Shown here: positions 16,802 through 27,345 of the stretch, piece by piece
How positions within the stretch are numbered: position 1 is the stretch's first letter
How the letters are laid out: each line of letters opens with the position of its first letter
Source of the DNA: Bdellovibrio sp.
GTDB taxonomy: Bacteria; Bdellovibrionota; Bacteriovoracia; Bacteriovoracales; Bacteriovoracaceae
Length of the DNA stretch: 64,000 nucleotides
Direction: 5' to 3'
Assembly (NCBI GenBank): GCA_016187935.1
Contig: JACPIU010000033.1
Location: 62,001 to 126,000 of the forward strand
The notes under the pieces: generated by a model
The model's input: the letters and a program-made list of their open reading frames with translations, nothing else
What the model was told of the DNA's origin: nothing
The model's database searches: none
Program-made: the position numbers and the translations under genes

Positions 16802-18292
16802 ATGAGTGAAATAACAAAATATTTTGATGTCGTGATGTTGATGGCCGATCTGCGGGAGGCACGAGAACTCTCAAGTGTGTTTAAAAAGGCCGGAATAAAT
16901 CCCATTTGTTACACAGAATATGGCCAATTTTGGCATGGCATTCTCAATCGGCCACCTTCTCTGGCCTTAATTGACATCTCTCTTATGGGGCAAGGACACA
17001 TGCCACTTAAAGAGCATCCTTTGATTAAGGGAGGTCAGCTTCCAATCGCTTTCTTTTATAAGGATGAGCATCGTCCTTTGCTGACTTCAACTTTGGATTA
17101 TGCTCATTACGGACTCATTCGGAAACAGGCAGATTACGAAGCTCCTCTAAAATCTTTGCTCTTGCGAGTAAATCAGCATCTGGCACTTGAGGGGCAATTA
17201 AAACAAAAAGAACTTGAATTGGGCAAGCGGGATGCTCAGCTGGCCCGTGTGTTAAAGGATAATGAGGAGCTTCGGTTGCAATTAGAGGCAAGTAGCGAAC
17301 TGAAAAATTTTCAGTTCGATGGCGAAGCCTTACGTAATGCTCAAGATTTTTCAACCTGGCTAGTGGCAAACTTAGAAAAGTGGGATTGGATTAAGCGTTT
17401 TGGATTGTATGAATATTCCTTATCAGAGAAGAAATTGATCACCCCGCCGGTGGTTAGCCCCAAGTATATCCCTTTGCCATCCTTATCGGTAAGTGCAGGG
17501 CCGAGTCCGCTAATGCAAAATATGGCCGCTCAAATGGCATTGGAAAATTTAGGGCCTAAGTTGATTTCACTTAATCTTGTCGGCCCATTCGACACCCCAT
17601 CTATTATGCTTTTTCTGGAGATTAAAGAACATAATCAAACAGGCAAAGATATTTTCCAGGACGATCGATTCCAGCCATCGTGGCCTCTTGTTGAGAATTT
17701 TTTGAGTGGTGCTTACGCCATTTGGGAATTACAGCACTTTACTGCTCCCAAGCCTAGCTCCAAGGAAAGGTCCTTGTGTGATATTCTGGCCTTGGCCGAT
17801 CGGGAATTTTTTGGTGATATGAACACAGTGACAGCAGAGAGTGGAGGAGATTTTGTATTTATCGGTCTGGATATCAGCTTTCTTGATCACATTATTAAAA
17901 AATATCCTGACAACCGCTTTTTTTGGCAAAAATTTGGACAGGATTTCAAATCAAGGATGCAAAATCTTTTAAGAAATGATGAAAATGCCTTTATTTCTGT
18001 GGCCGGGCCGTACGTTTATATTCTGGCCGTAACTCAATTAACTTACCAACGAACCTGGGACCATGTGCGCGATTTAACACAACGTTTTTCCTATTGGAGA
18101 TATTTTGAGAATCCTGAGAAAATTTTTGTTGAGAGTGTTCGTCCACTCATTCGACAACTTCCTGAATCGTCCGATGCATTGTTGAACTTTATTCACAATC
18201 CGACAACTCAATTTACTTCTTTATCGAGGAGGAAGACGGGCGAGCAGGTCAAAATTCCCAAAACTAATATTGCAGCAGAGGCGAGGCCATAG
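16802..18292 (+). CDS. Degenerate receiver-coiled-coil protein
   Basis: A 496-residue cytosolic protein. Residues 8-125 resemble a response-regulator receiver: a strand with a single acidic residue (VVMLMADLREA), a possible phospho-acceptor Asp in LALIDIS, and a Lys in YGLIRKQ. About 130-165 is a coiled coil (QLKQKELELGKRDAQLARVL). The remaining 330 residues are unrecognised but fold-like, ending in a basic tail. No DNA-binding or enzyme domain is visible. alr starts three bases after its stop. Function is unknown. Confidence 0.7.
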   Translation: MSEITKYFDVVMLMADLREARELSSVFKKAGINPICYTEYGQFWHGILNRPPSLALIDISLMGQGHMPLKEHPLIKGGQLPIAFFYKDEHRPLLTSTLDYAHYGLIRKQADYEAPLKSLLLRVNQHLALEGQLKQKELELGKRDAQLARVLKDNEELRLQLEASSELKNFQFDGEALRNAQDFSTWLVANLEKWDWIKRFGLYEYSLSEKKLITPPVVSPKYIPLPSLSVSAGPSPLMQNMAAQMALENLGPKLISLNLVGPFDTPSIMLFLEIKEHNQTGKDIFQDDRFQPSWPLVENFLSGAYAIWELQHFTAPKPSSKERSLCDILALADREFFGDMNTVTAESGGDFVFIGLDISFLDHIIKKYPDNRFFWQKFGQDFKSRMQNLLRNDENAFISVAGPYVYILAVTQLTYQRTWDHVRDLTQRFSYWRYFENPEKIFVESVRPLIRQLPESSDALLNFIHNPTTQFTSLSRRKTGEQVKIPKTNIAAEARP

Positions 18293-18295
18293 TTA

Positions 18296-19429
18296 GTGAG
18301 ACTCGGAGCCAATCTTGATATCGATTTGAAACTTCTTAAGAGCAATGTACAGGCCCTTACGGTACTTGCTTCGAACTCTGATATTCTATTTATGGTCAAG
18401 GCCAATGGGTATGGGCATGGAATGGTTCCTGTCACTCGTTTCACCCTTGAGGAATGTGGGGTACGAAATTATGGTGTCGCCACTTTGTTCGAAGGTCTCA
18501 AGCTGAGAAAAGCTATCCCCGAGCACTCTTTTGATATTTATGTCTTTTCTGAGAATCATTTATCTTCCCAGTATGCCGAACAATATTCGCATAATGCTCT
18601 TATTCCGGTTCTTTCATCTTTAAGTGAATTAGATTTATTTTTGAGTGAGCAAGTTTTCTCACGTGTACCTCTCGTGCTGAAATTCAACACAGGAATGAAC
18701 AGATTAGGTTTACCTATAAACGAAGATGAATTTGATTTGATCGTGACTAAGTTAAAAAATAAAGGACGCCGTGAGATTTTTCATCTGATGACTCATTTTG
18801 GCAGGTCGTTTGAGACACTGGCTGAACCAACCCAAATCACCCAGGAACAAATGAAGTCTTTTGAGGAAATCAGACAACGCTTTTTGCAGGCAGGATTTTC
18901 CATCATCTTCACATCAACTTCCAATTCGGGGGCGATTGAGCGGGGAATTGGGACTGGACTGTCTCATGTCCGTCCAGGGTTGATGTTATATGGTCCCTCG
19001 GCACTTTCTACGAATAGCACGCGTCCAAACTGGAAAGGTCATTGTATTTCTTCATTAAAGGTACAAGTGTTGCGAAGGATGAGTGTTAAGAAAAATACGC
19101 CAATTGGTTATGGCGGGACTTTAACTCCTAGGGATGGCACGATATGTGTTTTGGCCATTGGTTATGGCGATGGCTTTTCAACTAAGTTGCAGAACACCAC
19201 ACTTTATCATTTACCTGGCCAACCAACTTTTTTTGGGCGCATTAATATGGATATGGCGCAACTTTTTTATGCCGGATCAGGAAGTTCAATTCCCAATGAA
19301 GGTGATGTTTTAGAAATTTGGGGGCACGATGCTTCTCATGTTCTTAGCATTTCACAACAATCGGGCATCATCCCCTATGAGATTTATTGTGCCTTAGGGG
19401 AAAGAATTCCTCGGAAATATACTCTATGA
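18296..19429 (+). CDS. alr: Alanine racemase
   Basis: A PLP enzyme supplying D-alanine for peptidoglycan. The PLP lysine is K35 in MVKANGYGHG, the FNTGMNRLGL and TSNSGAIER motifs follow, VRPGLMLYG is present, and GYGDGFSTKL carries the second catalytic Tyr. 377 residues, a normal length. A GTG start directly follows the receiver-like gene. The stop overlaps the next ATG by four bases, tying it to the mla genes. Confidence 0.95.
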   Translation: MRLGANLDIDLKLLKSNVQALTVLASNSDILFMVKANGYGHGMVPVTRFTLEECGVRNYGVATLFEGLKLRKAIPEHSFDIYVFSENHLSSQYAEQYSHNALIPVLSSLSELDLFLSEQVFSRVPLVLKFNTGMNRLGLPINEDEFDLIVTKLKNKGRREIFHLMTHFGRSFETLAEPTQITQEQMKSFEEIRQRFLQAGFSIIFTSTSNSGAIERGIGTGLSHVRPGLMLYGPSALSTNSTRPNWKGHCISSLKVQVLRRMSVKKNTPIGYGGTLTPRDGTICVLAIGYGDGFSTKLQNTTLYHLPGQPTFFGRINMDMAQLFYAGSGSSIPNEGDVLEIWGHDASHVLSISQQSGIIPYEIYCALGERIPRKYTL

Positions 19430-20244
19430 GCGCAAACAACGCACATCCAGCAGATCACCCCTGGCCGTACAGAATTGTCGCGGAATTAGGGCAATCGATC
19501 ATAGATGTTTTGCGCGGGCTGGGTAAAATTACCCTATTTGCCGGCCGTTTTTTTTATTGGGTCGGACGTCCTCCCTACCGCATCCGTTTGGTTTTTGATC
19601 AGCTTTTTTTTATAGGTAATAAGAGTGTATTTATTATTGTGCTCTCCGGCTCTTTTACCGGTATGGTCATGGCCTATCAGACTTATTTCGGGTTTAAGTT
19701 GATTAATGTCGATACATTAGTTGGACCTGTCGTCGCTATTTCATTGGCAAAAGAATTGGCCCCAGTTTTGACTGGTTTGATTGTCGCTGGTCGCGCAGGC
19801 TCTGCCATGGCAGCTCAGATTGGTACCATGAAAGTTACTGAGCAAGTTGATGCTTTGGAAGTGATGGGGATTAATTCTTTGCAATACTTGGCAGCGCCAA
19901 GAATTTTAGCTGGAACATTGGCCTTACCTCTGTTGTCCATTATTTTTCTGTTTGTTGGAAGTGTCGGCGCCTATATTATCGGTACGAAGGCATTGATGAT
20001 CGACGAAGCGATTTTTTATTCGAAACTGGGCGAGTTCATGTATTTAGAAGATATGCTTCAGGGGGTTATTAAAGCTTTCTTTTTTGGCTTTGTTGTTTCT
20101 ACCATCGGTACATATTTCGGTTTTGAAGTCACCGAAGGGGCGGAAGGAGTGGGACGCGGGACTAATCAAGCGGTGGTCTGGGGAATGATTTTTGTATTGG
20201 TTCTTGATTACTTTTTGACCAGTTTTCTCATCAGGATTCTGTGA
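19426..20244 (+). CDS. mlaE: MlaE-type ABC permease
   Basis: Inner-membrane permease of the MCE/Mla phospholipid transport system. 272 residues from the ATG that overlaps the alr stop; an upstream in-frame start would overlap alr by 43 bases and is rejected. Signature segments: SGSFTGMVMAYQTYFGF, LAKELAPVLTGLIVAGRAGSA and the C-terminal GVGRGTNQAVVWGM. Five or six membrane helices. It overlaps mlaF. Confidence 0.94.
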   Translation: MSANNAHPADHPWPYRIVAELGQSIIDVLRGLGKITLFAGRFFYWVGRPPYRIRLVFDQLFFIGNKSVFIIVLSGSFTGMVMAYQTYFGFKLINVDTLVGPVVAISLAKELAPVLTGLIVAGRAGSAMAAQIGTMKVTEQVDALEVMGINSLQYLAAPRILAGTLALPLLSIIFLFVGSVGAYIIGTKALMIDEAIFYSKLGEFMYLEDMLQGVIKAFFFGFVVSTIGTYFGFEVTEGAEGVGRGTNQAVVWGMIFVLVLDYFLTSFLIRIL

Positions 20245-20990
20245 TGCCAGAAGACATCATTATTCAGTTTCAAAATGTTACTAAAAAATTTGGTGAGCAT
20301 GTTATTTTGTCTAATTTAAATTTTGAAATTTATAAAAATAAAATTACAACTATTTTAGGATTTTCCGGTGCTGGCAAATCGACCCTTTTGAAAATTATTT
20401 TAGGATTAGTTCATCCCACAGAAGGAGCTGTCTATGTTCTCGGACAGGATTTATCCAAGCTCGGTGATTTCCCATTGAGAGAATTCCGTCGTAATTTTGG
20501 GATGGTGTTTCAATATGCCGCTCTTTTTGATTCGATGACGGCCTACCAGAATGTCGAATTTCCCTTAAAAGAGTTCACCAATTTAAGACCTTCTGAACGT
20601 GATCATAAAGTTCGTCATCTTTTGACTTCTGTGGGGATTGATGATTTTGGCATGAAAAAACTACCTTCCGAATTATCAGGAGGGATGAGAAAGAGAGTGG
20701 GATTGGCCCGAGCGCTAGCATTGTCACCTGCCATTATGCTCTACGATGAGCCGACCACTGGATTGGACCCTATTACAAGCAAAATGGTCAATGATTTAAT
20801 TGTCGAGACCGCCGAGGCACATAAAGACAGAGGCCTGACCTCGGTTATAATTTCTCATGATATAAAGGCCACTTTGAAGATTTCCGACTTCATTGCCTTT
20901 TTAGACCGTGGTAGAATTGTAGAGTATTTGCCGGCCAAGGACTTTGTGAATTCCAACCATCCGTTGGTTCAGGAGTTCGTGCATTTATGA
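20244..20990 (+). CDS. mlaF: MlaF-type ABC ATPase
   Basis: ATPase that powers MlaE. Walker A GFSGAGKST, Q-loop FQYAALFDSMT, signature LSGGMRKRVGLARAL (the GMRKRV form is typical of MlaF), Walker B IMLYDEPTTGLDP and the switch His in ISHDI. 248 residues from this ATG, which overlaps the mlaE stop in TGATG; a GTG codon directly before is an alternative. mlaD follows after 15 bases. Confidence 0.95.
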   Translation: MPEDIIIQFQNVTKKFGEHVILSNLNFEIYKNKITTILGFSGAGKSTLLKIILGLVHPTEGAVYVLGQDLSKLGDFPLREFRRNFGMVFQYAALFDSMTAYQNVEFPLKEFTNLRPSERDHKVRHLLTSVGIDDFGMKKLPSELSGGMRKRVGLARALALSPAIMLYDEPTTGLDPITSKMVNDLIVETAEAHKDRGLTSVIISHDIKATLKISDFIAFLDRGRIVEYLPAKDFVNSNHPLVQEFVHL

Positions 20991-21005: not shown

Positions 21006-22379
21006 ATGAATGAATTTAAAGTCGGATTGCTAGCGCTGATCGCAATGGGAGCAGTTGTTTTCATGTCATTGAAAATAACTTCAAACCAATCGGGCTTTGG
21101 TAACTATAGAAGTTTCAAGACGATCGTCAAAGATGCGTCAGGAATTTTCCCTAAAACGCCGATCAAAGTTGCAGGTATTAATGCAGGTCGTATTAAGAGC
21201 ATTGAGCTTGAAAATAACGCTGCTCTTATCACTTTTGAAATTTTGAGCAAAGTGACCATTACAAAAGGGTCTAAACTTAAAATTAAAACAATTGGGTTTT
21301 TGGGTGACAAGTATTTGGAAATCACCATCGCCGAAAACGCCGAACCACTGGCCGAAGATGCATTCATCGAAGCCGAAGAAGGTGCGGGCATTGAAAAACT
21401 TATGAAAGATGCTTCGGAAGTCGTTGCCGATGTGAAGAAAATTACCACCAGCTTAAAAGAGAGCTTGGCCCCAGAGGGCAAAGAAGCACCCGTGACAAAA
21501 ATTTTAAATGATGTCAAAGAACTTACAGGAAATGTTAGAACGGTTTCTGAGACTTTAAAGCGCGTCATTACTGGCAACGAAGAGCAGCTGAAGAGGCTGA
21601 TTGATAATTTGGAGAAATTTTCAAAGCAAATTCGTGATGAGACGGACAAAACCAGAGATAAGAGTCTCGCTGCTGAGTTAAAAGAGATTTTGGCCAATAC
21701 TAAGAATGCCACTCATGATTTGAAAGTACTCATGGCGGATATTAGAAGTGGCAAAGGGTCGATAGGGAAATTTTTAGTAGAAGAAGAGATTGCAGATAAA
21801 GTAAACACCGCCCTTTCCAGCGTGAATCGTCTCGTCAATAACTTTAACTCGATACGGACTGAAGTTAATGCTTTTACCGGGGCCAATTCTGATTATGGTG
21901 CTGACACTCGAGCACAAGTTCGAATCTTTCCATCACCCGAGCGTTTTTATGTGTTGGGTCTCTCGACATCTGAATTTGGGCCGGAAAATGAACGACACAC
22001 GACGATTACGCAAGATGGGACAGAAACCCGTCGGGTTGAGAATTATCGAGATAAAAATTCATTCAGATTTGATATTCAGATGGGCCGGCGTGTTCAGAGT
22101 GTTTTTTTTCGCGGCGGCTTAATCGAATCCACGGGGGGATTAGGGGTTGATTATTTAGTTCAGCGATGGGGAACCACATTTACAGCGGAGTTGTTCGATT
22201 ATCGCGAAGGTGTCGGGCCCAATGTTCGCCTCGCTTCAGAAATTCGATTATGGAATATCTTCCATATGAAAGTTATGATGGAAGATTTGATTATTAGTAC
22301 CAGTCGAAGTTTTAGCGCTCTGATAGGTCTCAAATTTAATGATGAAGATCTGCGTAATTTGATTGGATTTTTCCTTTAG
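21006..22379 (+). CDS. mlaD: MlaD-type MCE protein with beta-rich C-terminal domain
   Basis: The substrate-binding MCE subunit. An N-terminal membrane anchor (about 5-22) is followed by one MCE domain (about 35-115: DASGIFPKTPIKVAGINAGR, TIGFLGDKYLEI), a long helical region with heptad character (about 120-285), and a C-terminal 165 residues made of alternating short beta strands separated by glycine/charged turns, ending IGFFL. E. coli MlaD is about 180 residues. The C-terminal part looks like outer-membrane strands (FYVLGLSTSEFG, GGLGVDYLVQRW, TTFTAELFDY), suggesting an envelope-spanning protein. No mlaC or mlaB is adjacent. Confidence 0.88.
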   Translation: MNEFKVGLLALIAMGAVVFMSLKITSNQSGFGNYRSFKTIVKDASGIFPKTPIKVAGINAGRIKSIELENNAALITFEILSKVTITKGSKLKIKTIGFLGDKYLEITIAENAEPLAEDAFIEAEEGAGIEKLMKDASEVVADVKKITTSLKESLAPEGKEAPVTKILNDVKELTGNVRTVSETLKRVITGNEEQLKRLIDNLEKFSKQIRDETDKTRDKSLAAELKEILANTKNATHDLKVLMADIRSGKGSIGKFLVEEEIADKVNTALSSVNRLVNNFNSIRTEVNAFTGANSDYGADTRAQVRIFPSPERFYVLGLSTSEFGPENERHTTITQDGTETRRVENYRDKNSFRFDIQMGRRVQSVFFRGGLIESTGGLGVDYLVQRWGTTFTAELFDYREGVGPNVRLASEIRLWNIFHMKVMMEDLIISTSRSFSALIGLKFNDEDLRNLIGFFL

Positions 22380-22388
22380 GGAACACTG

Positions 22389-24458
22389 ATGGAAAAGAAT
22401 TGGCTCATAAGAACAAGACAGAAACAGATATTAGGCCCGATCGGGCGTCAAAAACTCTTAGAGTTGCTATCAAAGAATTTATTGGCCCAAGATGATGAAA
22501 TTTGCTCTGGTAATGGTCATTGGTTCTATGTAAAAGAAAAATCGTTAATGGAGAAGTATATTTATGAAGGTATCAAGCAATCCTTCAATCCAATTTCCGA
22601 AGCCAAGGACGTTCTTAATATCGAGGGTACCAATCCTAATTCTCACCCACCGCATGAGGCGACAGATGCGCCCAACTCTTCTTTAGAATCGACAGTCGTT
22701 TTGAAAATGCCACCTAAAACCGAAAAAGTGGTGGAAGCTGCCCAGACCTCGATTAAAGCTAATCAAGAACGTAGAGCAAAACCAATCGCGCAGAATATCG
22801 TAGTACAAGATGAAGTCAAGGATCATTTTCCCCAAAGTACGGACTTGGAATATCCCGCGTCAGAGGAATCTACATCCTCAACCGCTGCAGCACCTCCCGT
22901 TCCACGGGATGAAGCGGCACACGATGGTGAGACCAGCAAACATTCTGAATCTTCGGGACCAAAAAAAAAAATAAAAACTGACCCGGCACTCCTGCTTAAA
23001 TTGAATCATCCTTCAGAAGATAAAACCGATGAAATTCCGCACGAATTTTCCAAGACGCGCAATGATTATTATCTATTTTATATTTTAATAGTCATGGCGA
23101 TCGTCGTACTTGTGGTGGTGTTTTACTATCGAAAGATTCTCAACCGGCCGTTGCCTTTTTTGAGTGATGCAAATGCGCAAGAACTCTTTTTGAATGTGCA
23201 CAAGAAATATCTCTTAAGTGATTTTTCCTTAAAATCTCAATTAGGCGAGATTAACTTTTCACAAAACATTTTTGGAATGATGCCTGAGACTCATAATGAA
23301 CGCCCAAAAGATTGTCCTAATAAACCATGGACACCTGTTGACTCTTTTTTTGTTCTGCTGGCGCAAAATAAAAAGGAATGGGCAGATTGGTGCAATAAAT
23401 GTCGTGCGCATCTCGGAGATGAAACCAAAGTATTTGAATTGCTGAACATGTCTATGTCGTATGACTCACAAAAAGAAATCAGTGGACAATTAAAACACTG
23501 GGGATATGACATTAGTGGATTAGAAATTGCCTTCAAGACCCTTGATGAGAATGCAAAAGTTGGTGCTAAAATCGTTCTTGCAGTTGATCAATTGATAGAA
23601 TCACTCTCAATTCAAGAGGAAAAAAGCTTTAACCCACAGGCACTGAGTTTGTGGCACAAGCGGATAAACAGTATCGAGCATGAGAATGTAATGGTCCCGC
23701 TCTTGTCGAGTATTTTGGCAATTCGTCATCACAACAGAGGAATGGCGCAAAAATTATACCAACAAGTTTTTGCCTTAGGCCCTTGGGATATATTTACGCG
23801 ACCACATTTCTACTCTCGTGTACACATAAACGGGCTATATAATAATTTAAGTAAACTTTTGAGATATACAAAGCTTCATTCTTTGGATCAATTTTATTCT
23901 AATATTTTATTCCATCATTTGGCCTTTTTAGATGGAGAGGTCTTAGCGAGGTTTTTACAGGACAATGCCCGACCGCTGTCATTATTAGATATCCGTACAC
24001 ATGCCAATTCATTTGTAGATTCTAAAATTGATCCGATTTTATGGTTTGATTTTCTTTATCGCAGAAGTACTGAAAATGAATTAAATAATTTCTTATCCTT
24101 CCTTGCCATGAAGGACAATGAACTTGTTGATTACAATGCTGCCAAGGGCCTGTTTATCTTGCATGAGAACGGGCGACAATTTCTCAATGAGAAATACAAT
24201 CCTCTTGTAGAATCATTATGGCAAAGTTCATCTTGGGGAAATAAAGTATTAGCTCTCAAGGCCTTTGAAAAAAATCCTTCACTGCAACGGGAAATAACTG
24301 AAAAGAATCAAGAGTTGAGTCGTCCTCTCTTCGATGTAAAAAGACATTTTTTTAGAAAGATGATTCAAAATGGACGTGGTATTTTCTATGCGTTATACAA
24401 TCTTTATAAATTGGGTGACATGGACGAAAAACTTTTGGTTCTTGTATTCTTAAGATAA
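22389..24458 (+). CDS. GYF-like domain protein with one membrane helix
   Basis: 689 residues. The first 60 resemble a GYF_2-type domain (WLIRTRQKQILGPIGRQKL then a GNGHWFYVKEK segment). A charged, Pro/Ser-rich linker leads to one membrane helix at about 229-248 (YYLFYILIVMAIVVLVVVFY). The rest, some 440 residues, is predicted helical and probably periplasmic, without recognised motifs. It shares the mla transcript (nine bases after mlaD) and abuts the Sua5-like gene. Its position suggests an accessory role at the inner membrane; that is inference. Confidence 0.75.
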   Translation: MEKNWLIRTRQKQILGPIGRQKLLELLSKNLLAQDDEICSGNGHWFYVKEKSLMEKYIYEGIKQSFNPISEAKDVLNIEGTNPNSHPPHEATDAPNSSLESTVVLKMPPKTEKVVEAAQTSIKANQERRAKPIAQNIVVQDEVKDHFPQSTDLEYPASEESTSSTAAAPPVPRDEAAHDGETSKHSESSGPKKKIKTDPALLLKLNHPSEDKTDEIPHEFSKTRNDYYLFYILIVMAIVVLVVVFYYRKILNRPLPFLSDANAQELFLNVHKKYLLSDFSLKSQLGEINFSQNIFGMMPETHNERPKDCPNKPWTPVDSFFVLLAQNKKEWADWCNKCRAHLGDETKVFELLNMSMSYDSQKEISGQLKHWGYDISGLEIAFKTLDENAKVGAKIVLAVDQLIESLSIQEEKSFNPQALSLWHKRINSIEHENVMVPLLSSILAIRHHNRGMAQKLYQQVFALGPWDIFTRPHFYSRVHINGLYNNLSKLLRYTKLHSLDQFYSNILFHHLAFLDGEVLARFLQDNARPLSLLDIRTHANSFVDSKIDPILWFDFLYRRSTENELNNFLSFLAMKDNELVDYNAAKGLFILHENGRQFLNEKYNPLVESLWQSSSWGNKVLALKAFEKNPSLQREITEKNQELSRPLFDVKRHFFRKMIQNGRGIFYALYNLYKLGDMDEKLLVLVFLR

Positions 24459-25632: not shown

Positions 25633-25686
25633 GCTATTCAGAGATGTATTCCCTTTATCCTATATTAATTGATAGTATGTGAGTCT

Positions 25687-26388
25687 ATGAAAGAAAAGGG
25701 CCTTTTTCGCAAATTAATTTTTTATTTTTTGAATTTAGTGGCGATCGTTGGGACATCGGGTTGCACCGGATATCGCCCTGTGCAGGCCAAGAATCCCTTA
25801 TATTATTACGGTATTACTTCTGTGTCGGTGCCTCAATTTATTAACAAGTCAATTATACCGTCTATTTCAGGACCCCTGACGAAGTCTATTTTTTTAGTCT
25901 TGGCACGTTACCCGGGTTTGACTGTTTATGCCGGGGAAAATCCTAAGGCCGATGCGGTATTAATTGGTATTATCGAATCAAAGGATCATCGCGAAAAGGT
26001 TTACAATCATGGGATTAGCCGCCACTTTATTAATGAGAATAGTTCCTTGAAAGGATCAATAGGCAACCGGCCCGGGTTTTATGTGAACGGTGAATCAACT
26101 TATTCAGTCAATTTGCGTTTGATTTTGATCAAGAACCCTGATTGGCAATCGGTCTCCTTGGCGCAATCAGATTTGGGGAGTCAGCTTTTGGCTTCTCCTC
26201 AAATAATTTTAAACGAATCATTGGGTCTGCGTGGTTCCTTCAGCCATGCTCTGGATAGTAATGTTGGCCCGGATGATGGTGGTGTTGTGAATTTCACCAA
26301 GACTAAAGGTATTTACGATCAATCCCTTCAATCAATGGGGCAAACCGCCGCCGATTGGTTTCGAGGTGTTGTTATGAACGCATTTTAA
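25687..26388 (+). CDS. lptE: LptE-like outer-membrane lipoprotein
   Basis: Probable LPS-assembly lipoprotein. The signal peptide ends in the lipobox TSGC, followed by TGYRP and the LptE-like strand VPQFINKSIIPSISGPLTKSI; further on ADAVLIGII resembles the family GxI segment. 233 residues. The identification rests partly on synteny: lptE-holA-rpsT is a common order. The ATG at 25687 is preferred; the frame could start at a TTG six codons earlier, but that overlaps a likely -10 (TATATT, 25662-25667). Confidence 0.7.
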   Translation: MKEKGLFRKLIFYFLNLVAIVGTSGCTGYRPVQAKNPLYYYGITSVSVPQFINKSIIPSISGPLTKSIFLVLARYPGLTVYAGENPKADAVLIGIIESKDHREKVYNHGISRHFINENSSLKGSIGNRPGFYVNGESTYSVNLRLILIKNPDWQSVSLAQSDLGSQLLASPQIILNESLGLRGSFSHALDSNVGPDDGGVVNFTKTKGIYDQSLQSMGQTAADWFRGVVMNAF

Positions 26389-27345
26389 GTGAGCAACTTA
26401 TTGGAAACTAAAGCAGAATGGGCACCGTGGGAGTTTTATAAGATCTACACCCATCCTTTTGTAGGAAAGGATGAAGGATTACATCTCTTTTCTTTTCCTG
26501 ACTCCCACTTGGAAAGAGTTTTATTTTATCGCAAGTATTCTACCTACTCGACGAATCGTTCCTTTCGCATAGTGCACGGACAAGATTTGACCATCAATTG
26601 GATTGATGAAAATTGGAATGGGATGGACCTTTTTGGAACAGACGATGTATTTTTTGTCCTCATGCCGGAATTGGCTTCAGATGAAATAAAAAAATATATT
26701 AAGCAGCATGGCCCTTTTAGCAAAACCATTATTATGTCTTTTACTGGAGAGCAGGACTGGTTTCTTGAACTTAAAAAGGTGACAAATTCGTCAGTATTAG
26801 TGCGCGCTCCTAAATTTTGGGAAGGGCATCAGTTGCTTGAACTCCTTATGCTTTTTTATGATCTTGAGCTTACCTATGAAGCCGAACAATTCATCCTCGA
26901 ATCGTTACCTTTTGAGACCGCGCCTTTGATGGCCCAGCTCAATTTAATAAAAATATATTTTCCGAAAGAGGGCCAGGTATTAGGACAAAAAGATATCGAA
27001 ATCCTTGTTTCTCGGCAGAAATTGGATTTTTTTCATCTTGCAACTCATTTCGGGAAAAAACAGCTGGAGCAATTTTATTCAAAGCTTGTGAATTATGACG
27101 GAGATTTTGAGGAATTTTTCCGTTTTATGGAAGGACATTTATTAAAGTTGTACGATCCATCTTATGCTCAAAAAAAAGGCCGTCCGAGTAAATATGATAA
27201 GGAAATACTTGATCACTCGCGCTTATGGAACCGGCAAGAGATTTTAGACAATCTCCTGTTCTTTGGTGATTTATGGATTCGCACGAAAGGATATGATGCC
27301 TCAGTGTTGGATTCCTTGCGGTTATGTTATTTGAAGACTTTGTGA
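26389..27345 (+). CDS. holA: DNA polymerase III delta subunit-like protein
   Basis: 318 residues, very divergent. The assignment to HolA comes from position (directly after lptE, before rpsT), length, and weak pattern matches: DLFGTDDVFFVLMPE resembles the delta-subunit strand after the clamp-loader linker, and FFHLATHFGKKQLEQFYSKL resembles the helix that begins the collar region. There is no Walker A, as expected for delta. A GTG start immediately follows the lptE stop. If correct, it loads the beta clamp. Confidence 0.6.
   Translation: MSNLLETKAEWAPWEFYKIYTHPFVGKDEGLHLFSFPDSHLERVLFYRKYSTYSTNRSFRIVHGQDLTINWIDENWNGMDLFGTDDVFFVLMPELASDEIKKYIKQHGPFSKTIIMSFTGEQDWFLELKKVTNSSVLVRAPKFWEGHQLLELLMLFYDLELTYEAEQFILESLPFETAPLMAQLNLIKIYFPKEGQVLGQKDIEILVSRQKLDFFHLATHFGKKQLEQFYSKLVNYDGDFEEFFRFMEGHLLKLYDPSYAQKKGRPSKYDKEILDHSRLWNRQEILDNLLFFGDLWIRTKGYDASVLDSLRLCYLKTL

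Follow-up and report, generated by a model that had tools for sequence, protein, structure and literature searches.

The three genes of a probable trans-envelope MlaEFD system, mlaE, mlaF, and mlaD, are present together in the window, the 64,000-nucleotide stretch of Bdellovibrio sp. contig JACPIU010000033.1 that was analyzed. With the upstream alr gene (18296–19429) they form an operon-like run on the plus strand, in which neighboring genes overlap or nearly so. mlaE (19426–20244), encoding the permease, is recognized by PF02405 (E 8.2e-73) and scores above the cut-off of TIGR00056; its reading frame is open from a TTG at 19387, and the ATG at 19426 overlaps the stop codon of alr. mlaF (20244–20990), encoding the ABC ATPase, starts with an ATG at 20244, with an alternative GTG at 20241, and matches PF00005 (ABC_tran) with E 2.3e-35; its match to the MlaF model NF008809 has E 5e-49, yet lies below the cut-off of that model. 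The last gene of the run, mlaD (21006–22379), encodes a long form of MlaD of 457 aa and was identified by a match to PF02470 (E 2.1e-14) and by the conserved mlaE-mlaF-mlaD order. No STAS/MlaB gene was found linked to the operon, and none of the genes after mlaD is a lipid-transport gene by its Pfam family.

MlaD begins with a transmembrane helix, residues 2–27 (21009–21086), modelled as such by AlphaFold2 and containing a hydropathy peak of 2.28 over 19 residues from residue 6. The MCE domain, residues 37–107 (21114–21326), is modelled with its strands and is the only MCE stretch detected by Pfam, which sets the protein apart from PqiB and LetB with several MCE domains per chain. The long helical stretch that the first-pass annotation had placed after the MCE domain was recovered at residues 129–280 (21390–21845), as amphipathic helices modelled by AlphaFold2 with low confidence and with a hydrophobic period of 100–104 degrees. 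These approximately 150 helical residues would be long enough to span the periplasm, reaching up to about 23 nm if unbroken, at 1.5 Å per residue. The AlphaFold2 model of full-length MlaD contains the helix 2–27, the MCE strands, the helices 129–280, and twelve strand segments within residues 284–444; its mean pLDDT is 60.5, with the helices mostly below 50, and at such confidence it is of little use as a guide to the helices or to the relative placement of the domains.

The C-terminal part of MlaD, residues 284–444 (21855–22337), is predicted to be a ten-stranded β-barrel. When residues 277–457 were modelled alone by AlphaFold2 with an alignment of 23 sequences, ten strands (approximately 284–444) followed by a helix at 446–456 were obtained with a mean pLDDT of 81.6, strands 3 and 4 forming one long hairpin. 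Strand by strand, hydrophobicity alternates between the two faces with a mean difference of 3.32, as compared with 1.22 ± 0.28 in shuffled sequences (maximum 2.40 of 5,000), and one face is clearly more hydrophobic in nine of the ten strands. The nine to ten amphipathic strands proposed from the sequence are thus present in the model, and their alternation is far beyond that expected by chance. In a Foldseek comparison of the β domain with the PDB, the 50 best matches were essentially all transmembrane barrels: designed eight- and ten-stranded barrels lead (E 3.3e-4 and 1.2e-3), followed by porins, OmpG, OmpA, and OMPLA. The matches are moderate, the best E value being 3.3e-4 and the TM-score normalized by the query reaching at most 0.55; this value belongs to the designed ten-stranded barrel TMB10_163, for which the score by target is 0.67. 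In agreement with the first-pass annotation, the structure predicted for the domain alone is of the transmembrane-barrel type and not a soluble sandwich. Searches with the barrel sequence alone gave a single chance match in the PDB, to a ribosomal protein, and scattered single matches in Pfam, none of them real. In the model, the turns on the side of the termini are short (SPER, QSV, QRWG, NIF), and most of the loops on the opposite side are longer. Outer-membrane barrels usually have short turns on the periplasmic side and longer loops on the other side. Ten modelled strands with both ends on the same side would agree with an outer-membrane barrel whose two termini lie in the periplasm.

One argument for such a barrel had to be abandoned. 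The final residues IGFFL had been read as a porin-like ending, but they follow the last strand, which stops at F444 (GLKF), and lie in the predicted terminal helix. The segment that comes after F444, NDEDLRNLIGFFL (residues 445–457, 22338–22376), contains a DxDL motif and is modelled as a short amphipathic helix at 446–456. The corresponding motif, G-h-x-h-x-D-x-D-h, occurs in 74 of 75 homologues and at no other position in those proteins; even distant members end in forms such as GAGLFLTNDDLKLLL. MlaD has neither a canonical C-terminal porin signature nor a canonical terminal aromatic residue, and a barrel-assembly signal at the last strand is recognizable in 22 of the 75 homologues by strict and in 47 by relaxed criteria.

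The genome from which the window originates is 4.4 Mb in size and 99.25% complete. The remark that mlaA and mlaC are not adjacent to the operon can be extended to the entire genome, since no match to PF04333 (MlaA) or PF05494 (MlaC) was found in it, while the E. coli and Caulobacter controls were positive. A search for MlaB-type proteins gave one weak STAS match, on another contig and below the cut-off. A TamB of approximately 1,330 aa is present. Two further MlaE-F-D sets are encoded in the genome; their MCE proteins, 306 and 295 aa long, lack the β domain. The second set (locus L091, 2402–4628, contig 27) comprises a divergent MlaF-like ATPase and the 306-aa barrel-less protein. In the third (locus L092, 2584–5672, contig 2), the gene for the 295-aa protein overlaps a gene for a predicted 280-aa TPR lipoprotein, which may serve as an outer-membrane partner instead of a barrel.

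The long MlaD is not confined to this genome. Homologous loci with 45–89% identity were found in assemblies of Bacteriovoracaceae and other Bdellovibrionales, the closest (89%) in Bdellovibrionales bacterium GWA2_49_15, and in these homologues the C-terminal domain is in frame. Among 144 sampled genomes of Bdellovibrionota, 93 contain matches to the C-terminal domain, always as a single copy whose reading frame is uninterrupted by stops; almost all of these frames are about 430–550 aa long. The same C-terminus, which the first-pass annotation had proposed to look for in relatives, is thus shared by near homologues, distant loci, and the majority of the sampled genomes. The gene order is also conserved: mlaE lies upstream of the long mlaD in all of 20 distant loci, with mlaF between them in 18 (MlaF was not detected in the other two by the comparison used), and the mlaF-mlaD order is seen in every near locus of sufficient length. 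MCE domains were detected in 134 of the 144 genomes, MlaA in none, and MlaC in 42. MlaC is present in 14 of the 93 genomes with the barrel domain versus 28 of the 51 without it (Fisher p 9e-7, related genomes not being independent observations), i.e., the barrel domain and MlaC tend toward mutual exclusion in the phylum.

The closest known counterpart is MlaD of Veillonella parvula, as described by Grasekamp et al. 2023 (PMC10665443). Neither MlaA nor MlaC is present in V. parvula, and its MlaEFD system likewise consists of the three genes mlaE-F-D only. Its MlaD, of 419 aa as compared with 457 aa here, has the same four-part build, composed of a transmembrane helix, a single MCE domain, approximately 150 helical residues, and a predicted ten-stranded C-terminal barrel; the likeness described here is one of architecture, and in both proteins the barrel is known from prediction. 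In isolation, the V. parvula barrel is found in outer-membrane fractions and the MCE part in inner-membrane fractions, and mla mutants show outer-membrane phenotypes that are suppressed by mutations in tamB, TamB acting as an antagonist (PMC10665443). TamB is also encoded in the genome analyzed here, which was counted in favor of a V. parvula-type reading. The two systems differ in that V. parvula belongs to another phylum and has tolC and tamB following in one operon, whereas here a gene of unassigned family follows, and in that the present genome encodes two further, barrel-less MlaEFD sets. Barrels were reported in 103 MlaD sequences, approximately 10%, from diderm Terrabacteria, some Proteobacteria, and related phyla; the main text of that paper makes no mention of Bdellovibrionota, although its supplements may include them (PMC10665443). 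Literature searches yielded no relevant paper on Bdellovibrio MlaD and, for later work on the V. parvula protein, only passing mentions.

Other MCE systems resemble the present one in part. MlaE, MlaF, and the MCE domain of MlaD are shared with the Mla systems of E. coli and A. baumannii (MlaA, MlaBDEF, and MlaC), and solved MlaD structures of this type match the N-terminal part of the protein. E. coli MlaD, however, is a short protein of 183 aa that depends on MlaC as a shuttle and on the lipoprotein MlaA, neither of which was found here; against TIGR04430, the equivalog of the short E. coli-type MlaD, the 457-aa protein scores 65.7 bits, with a cut-off of 135. In PqiB and mycobacterial Mce1, as is proposed here, an MCE ring and long helices form a tube across the periplasm, and an Mce1 chain matches residues 4–260 of the MlaD profile. 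Unlike the MlaD modelled here, neither has a ten-stranded barrel in each chain; PqiB contains three MCE rings and works with the lipoprotein PqiC, and Mce1 is a heterohexamer (PMC10665443).

Taken together, the locus likely encodes a minimal, three-component MlaEFD phospholipid transporter in which a long MlaD would bridge the envelope. MlaE and MlaF would form the inner-membrane ABC transporter, beside which MlaD, probably a hexamer, would be anchored through its N-terminal helix. The MCE ring and the helical tube would provide a path for lipids across the periplasm, and the ten-stranded barrel is predicted to insert into the outer membrane with both ends periplasmic. With such a bridging MlaD, neither the shuttle MlaC nor MlaA, the outer-membrane lipoprotein, would be needed. 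By analogy with V. parvula only, misplaced phospholipids may be returned from the outer to the inner membrane. A single protein reaching from the inner membrane across the periplasm to the outer membrane, as had been suggested from the sequence, is thus supported by the barrel prediction, the shared C-terminus, the absence of MlaA and MlaC, and the published V. parvula model; the flow of lipid along it is inferred. Weighing against this reading are the moderate structural matches, the poor full-length model, the lack of a porin signature, a conservation difference between the strand faces that does not reach significance in distant homologues, the narrowness of a ten-stranded barrel, and the two barrel-less MlaE-F-D sets in the same genome.

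Provided that this explanation is correct, it is rather probable that the barrel serves only as an anchor or docking device and that lipids never cross it, their exchange with the helical tube taking place at the inner face of the outer membrane. The authors of the V. parvula study considered a ten-stranded barrel too narrow for a phospholipid and suggested that barrels merge or have an anchoring role, and most long MlaDs, all but approximately 10%, have no barrel (PMC10665443). The polar face of the barrel studied here carries many charged residues, whose side chains likely fill the lumen. Nothing decisive stands against this possibility, which differs from the main explanation solely in the lipid path. 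Since so narrow a barrel may only anchor, we think that anchoring is a more likely role for it than that of a lipid conduit.

It is much less probable that the C-terminal domain is a soluble periplasmic barrel or sandwich touching peptidoglycan or an outer-membrane partner without insertion. Such a domain would agree with the lack of a canonical terminal aromatic residue, and alternation alone also fits an inside-out soluble barrel; conservation was therefore compared face by face. Across 55 near homologues the polar face of the β domain is more conserved than the hydrophobic one (0.718 versus 0.641, permutation p 0.028), with a difference in the same direction, not significant (p 0.14), in 20 distant homologues. 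The order is reversed in the soluble MCE strands of these proteins, with conservation of 0.735 on the polar and 0.872 on the hydrophobic face. This opposite behavior, supporting but not conclusive, favors an arrangement in which the polar face would line the barrel and the hydrophobic face would touch lipid. A soluble β-sandwich was also considered and is disfavored by the best structural matches, essentially all transmembrane barrels, and by the recovery of the V. parvula barrel in outer-membrane fractions (PMC10665443). Equally improbable is an unrecognized partner that takes over from MlaA or MlaC, for example a lipoprotein of the outer membrane encoded elsewhere and contacted by the barrel: the 14 barrel-domain genomes with MlaC and the TPR lipoprotein gene directly after one barrel-less set, which shows that candidate partners lie near such systems, speak for it, while the absence of MlaA from all 144 genomes, of MlaC from the window's own genome, of a linked STAS/MlaB gene, and of lipid-transport families after mlaD speaks against it.

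The idea of a trans-envelope MlaD is not new, being the same as the published V. parvula model (Grasekamp et al. 2023, PMC10665443). There are only two additions: the conserved DxDL terminal helix and the phylum-wide set of members. What is added is that the predicted trans-envelope MlaD runs through most of Bdellovibrionota, a phylum that includes predatory bacteria, so that a whole phylum with growable and mutable predators joins the documented cases. In the same family, MCE genes were found in 32 sampled relatives, 20 of which carry just one, and in these a single deletion would test MCE-based transport without shuttle or lipoprotein. In one same-family genome (G050), 99% complete, no MCE gene was found; every MlaD appears to have been lost there naturally. 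On a more far-reaching and rather improbable reading, the barrel MlaD, in many Bacteriovoracaceae the sole MCE protein of the cell, would operate in the absence of MlaA and MlaC and so carry MCE-based lipid traffic between the membranes alone. The same doubtful reading would make the DxDL helix a working part as well: it could gate or plug the inner opening of the barrel, or that of a larger pore formed by merging, or it could be an unusual signal for barrel assembly, of a kind undescribed for other outer-membrane barrels.

Several reading frames around the operon are without family assignment. The 496-aa frame at 16802–18292 has no Pfam match, and its start, by eye, resembles a degenerate receiver domain. 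Directly 3' of mlaD, the frame at 22389–24458 encodes a protein of 689 aa without a significant Pfam match, in which a GYF-like segment at the N-terminus and a single transmembrane helix around residue 230 can be discerned by eye. Farther downstream, at 25669–27345, a lipoprotein-like frame is followed by a gene for a protein of 318 aa, and both are without a Pfam match; their order and appearance suggest an LptE-like lipoprotein and the delta subunit of DNA polymerase III, comparable to lptE-holA of E. coli.
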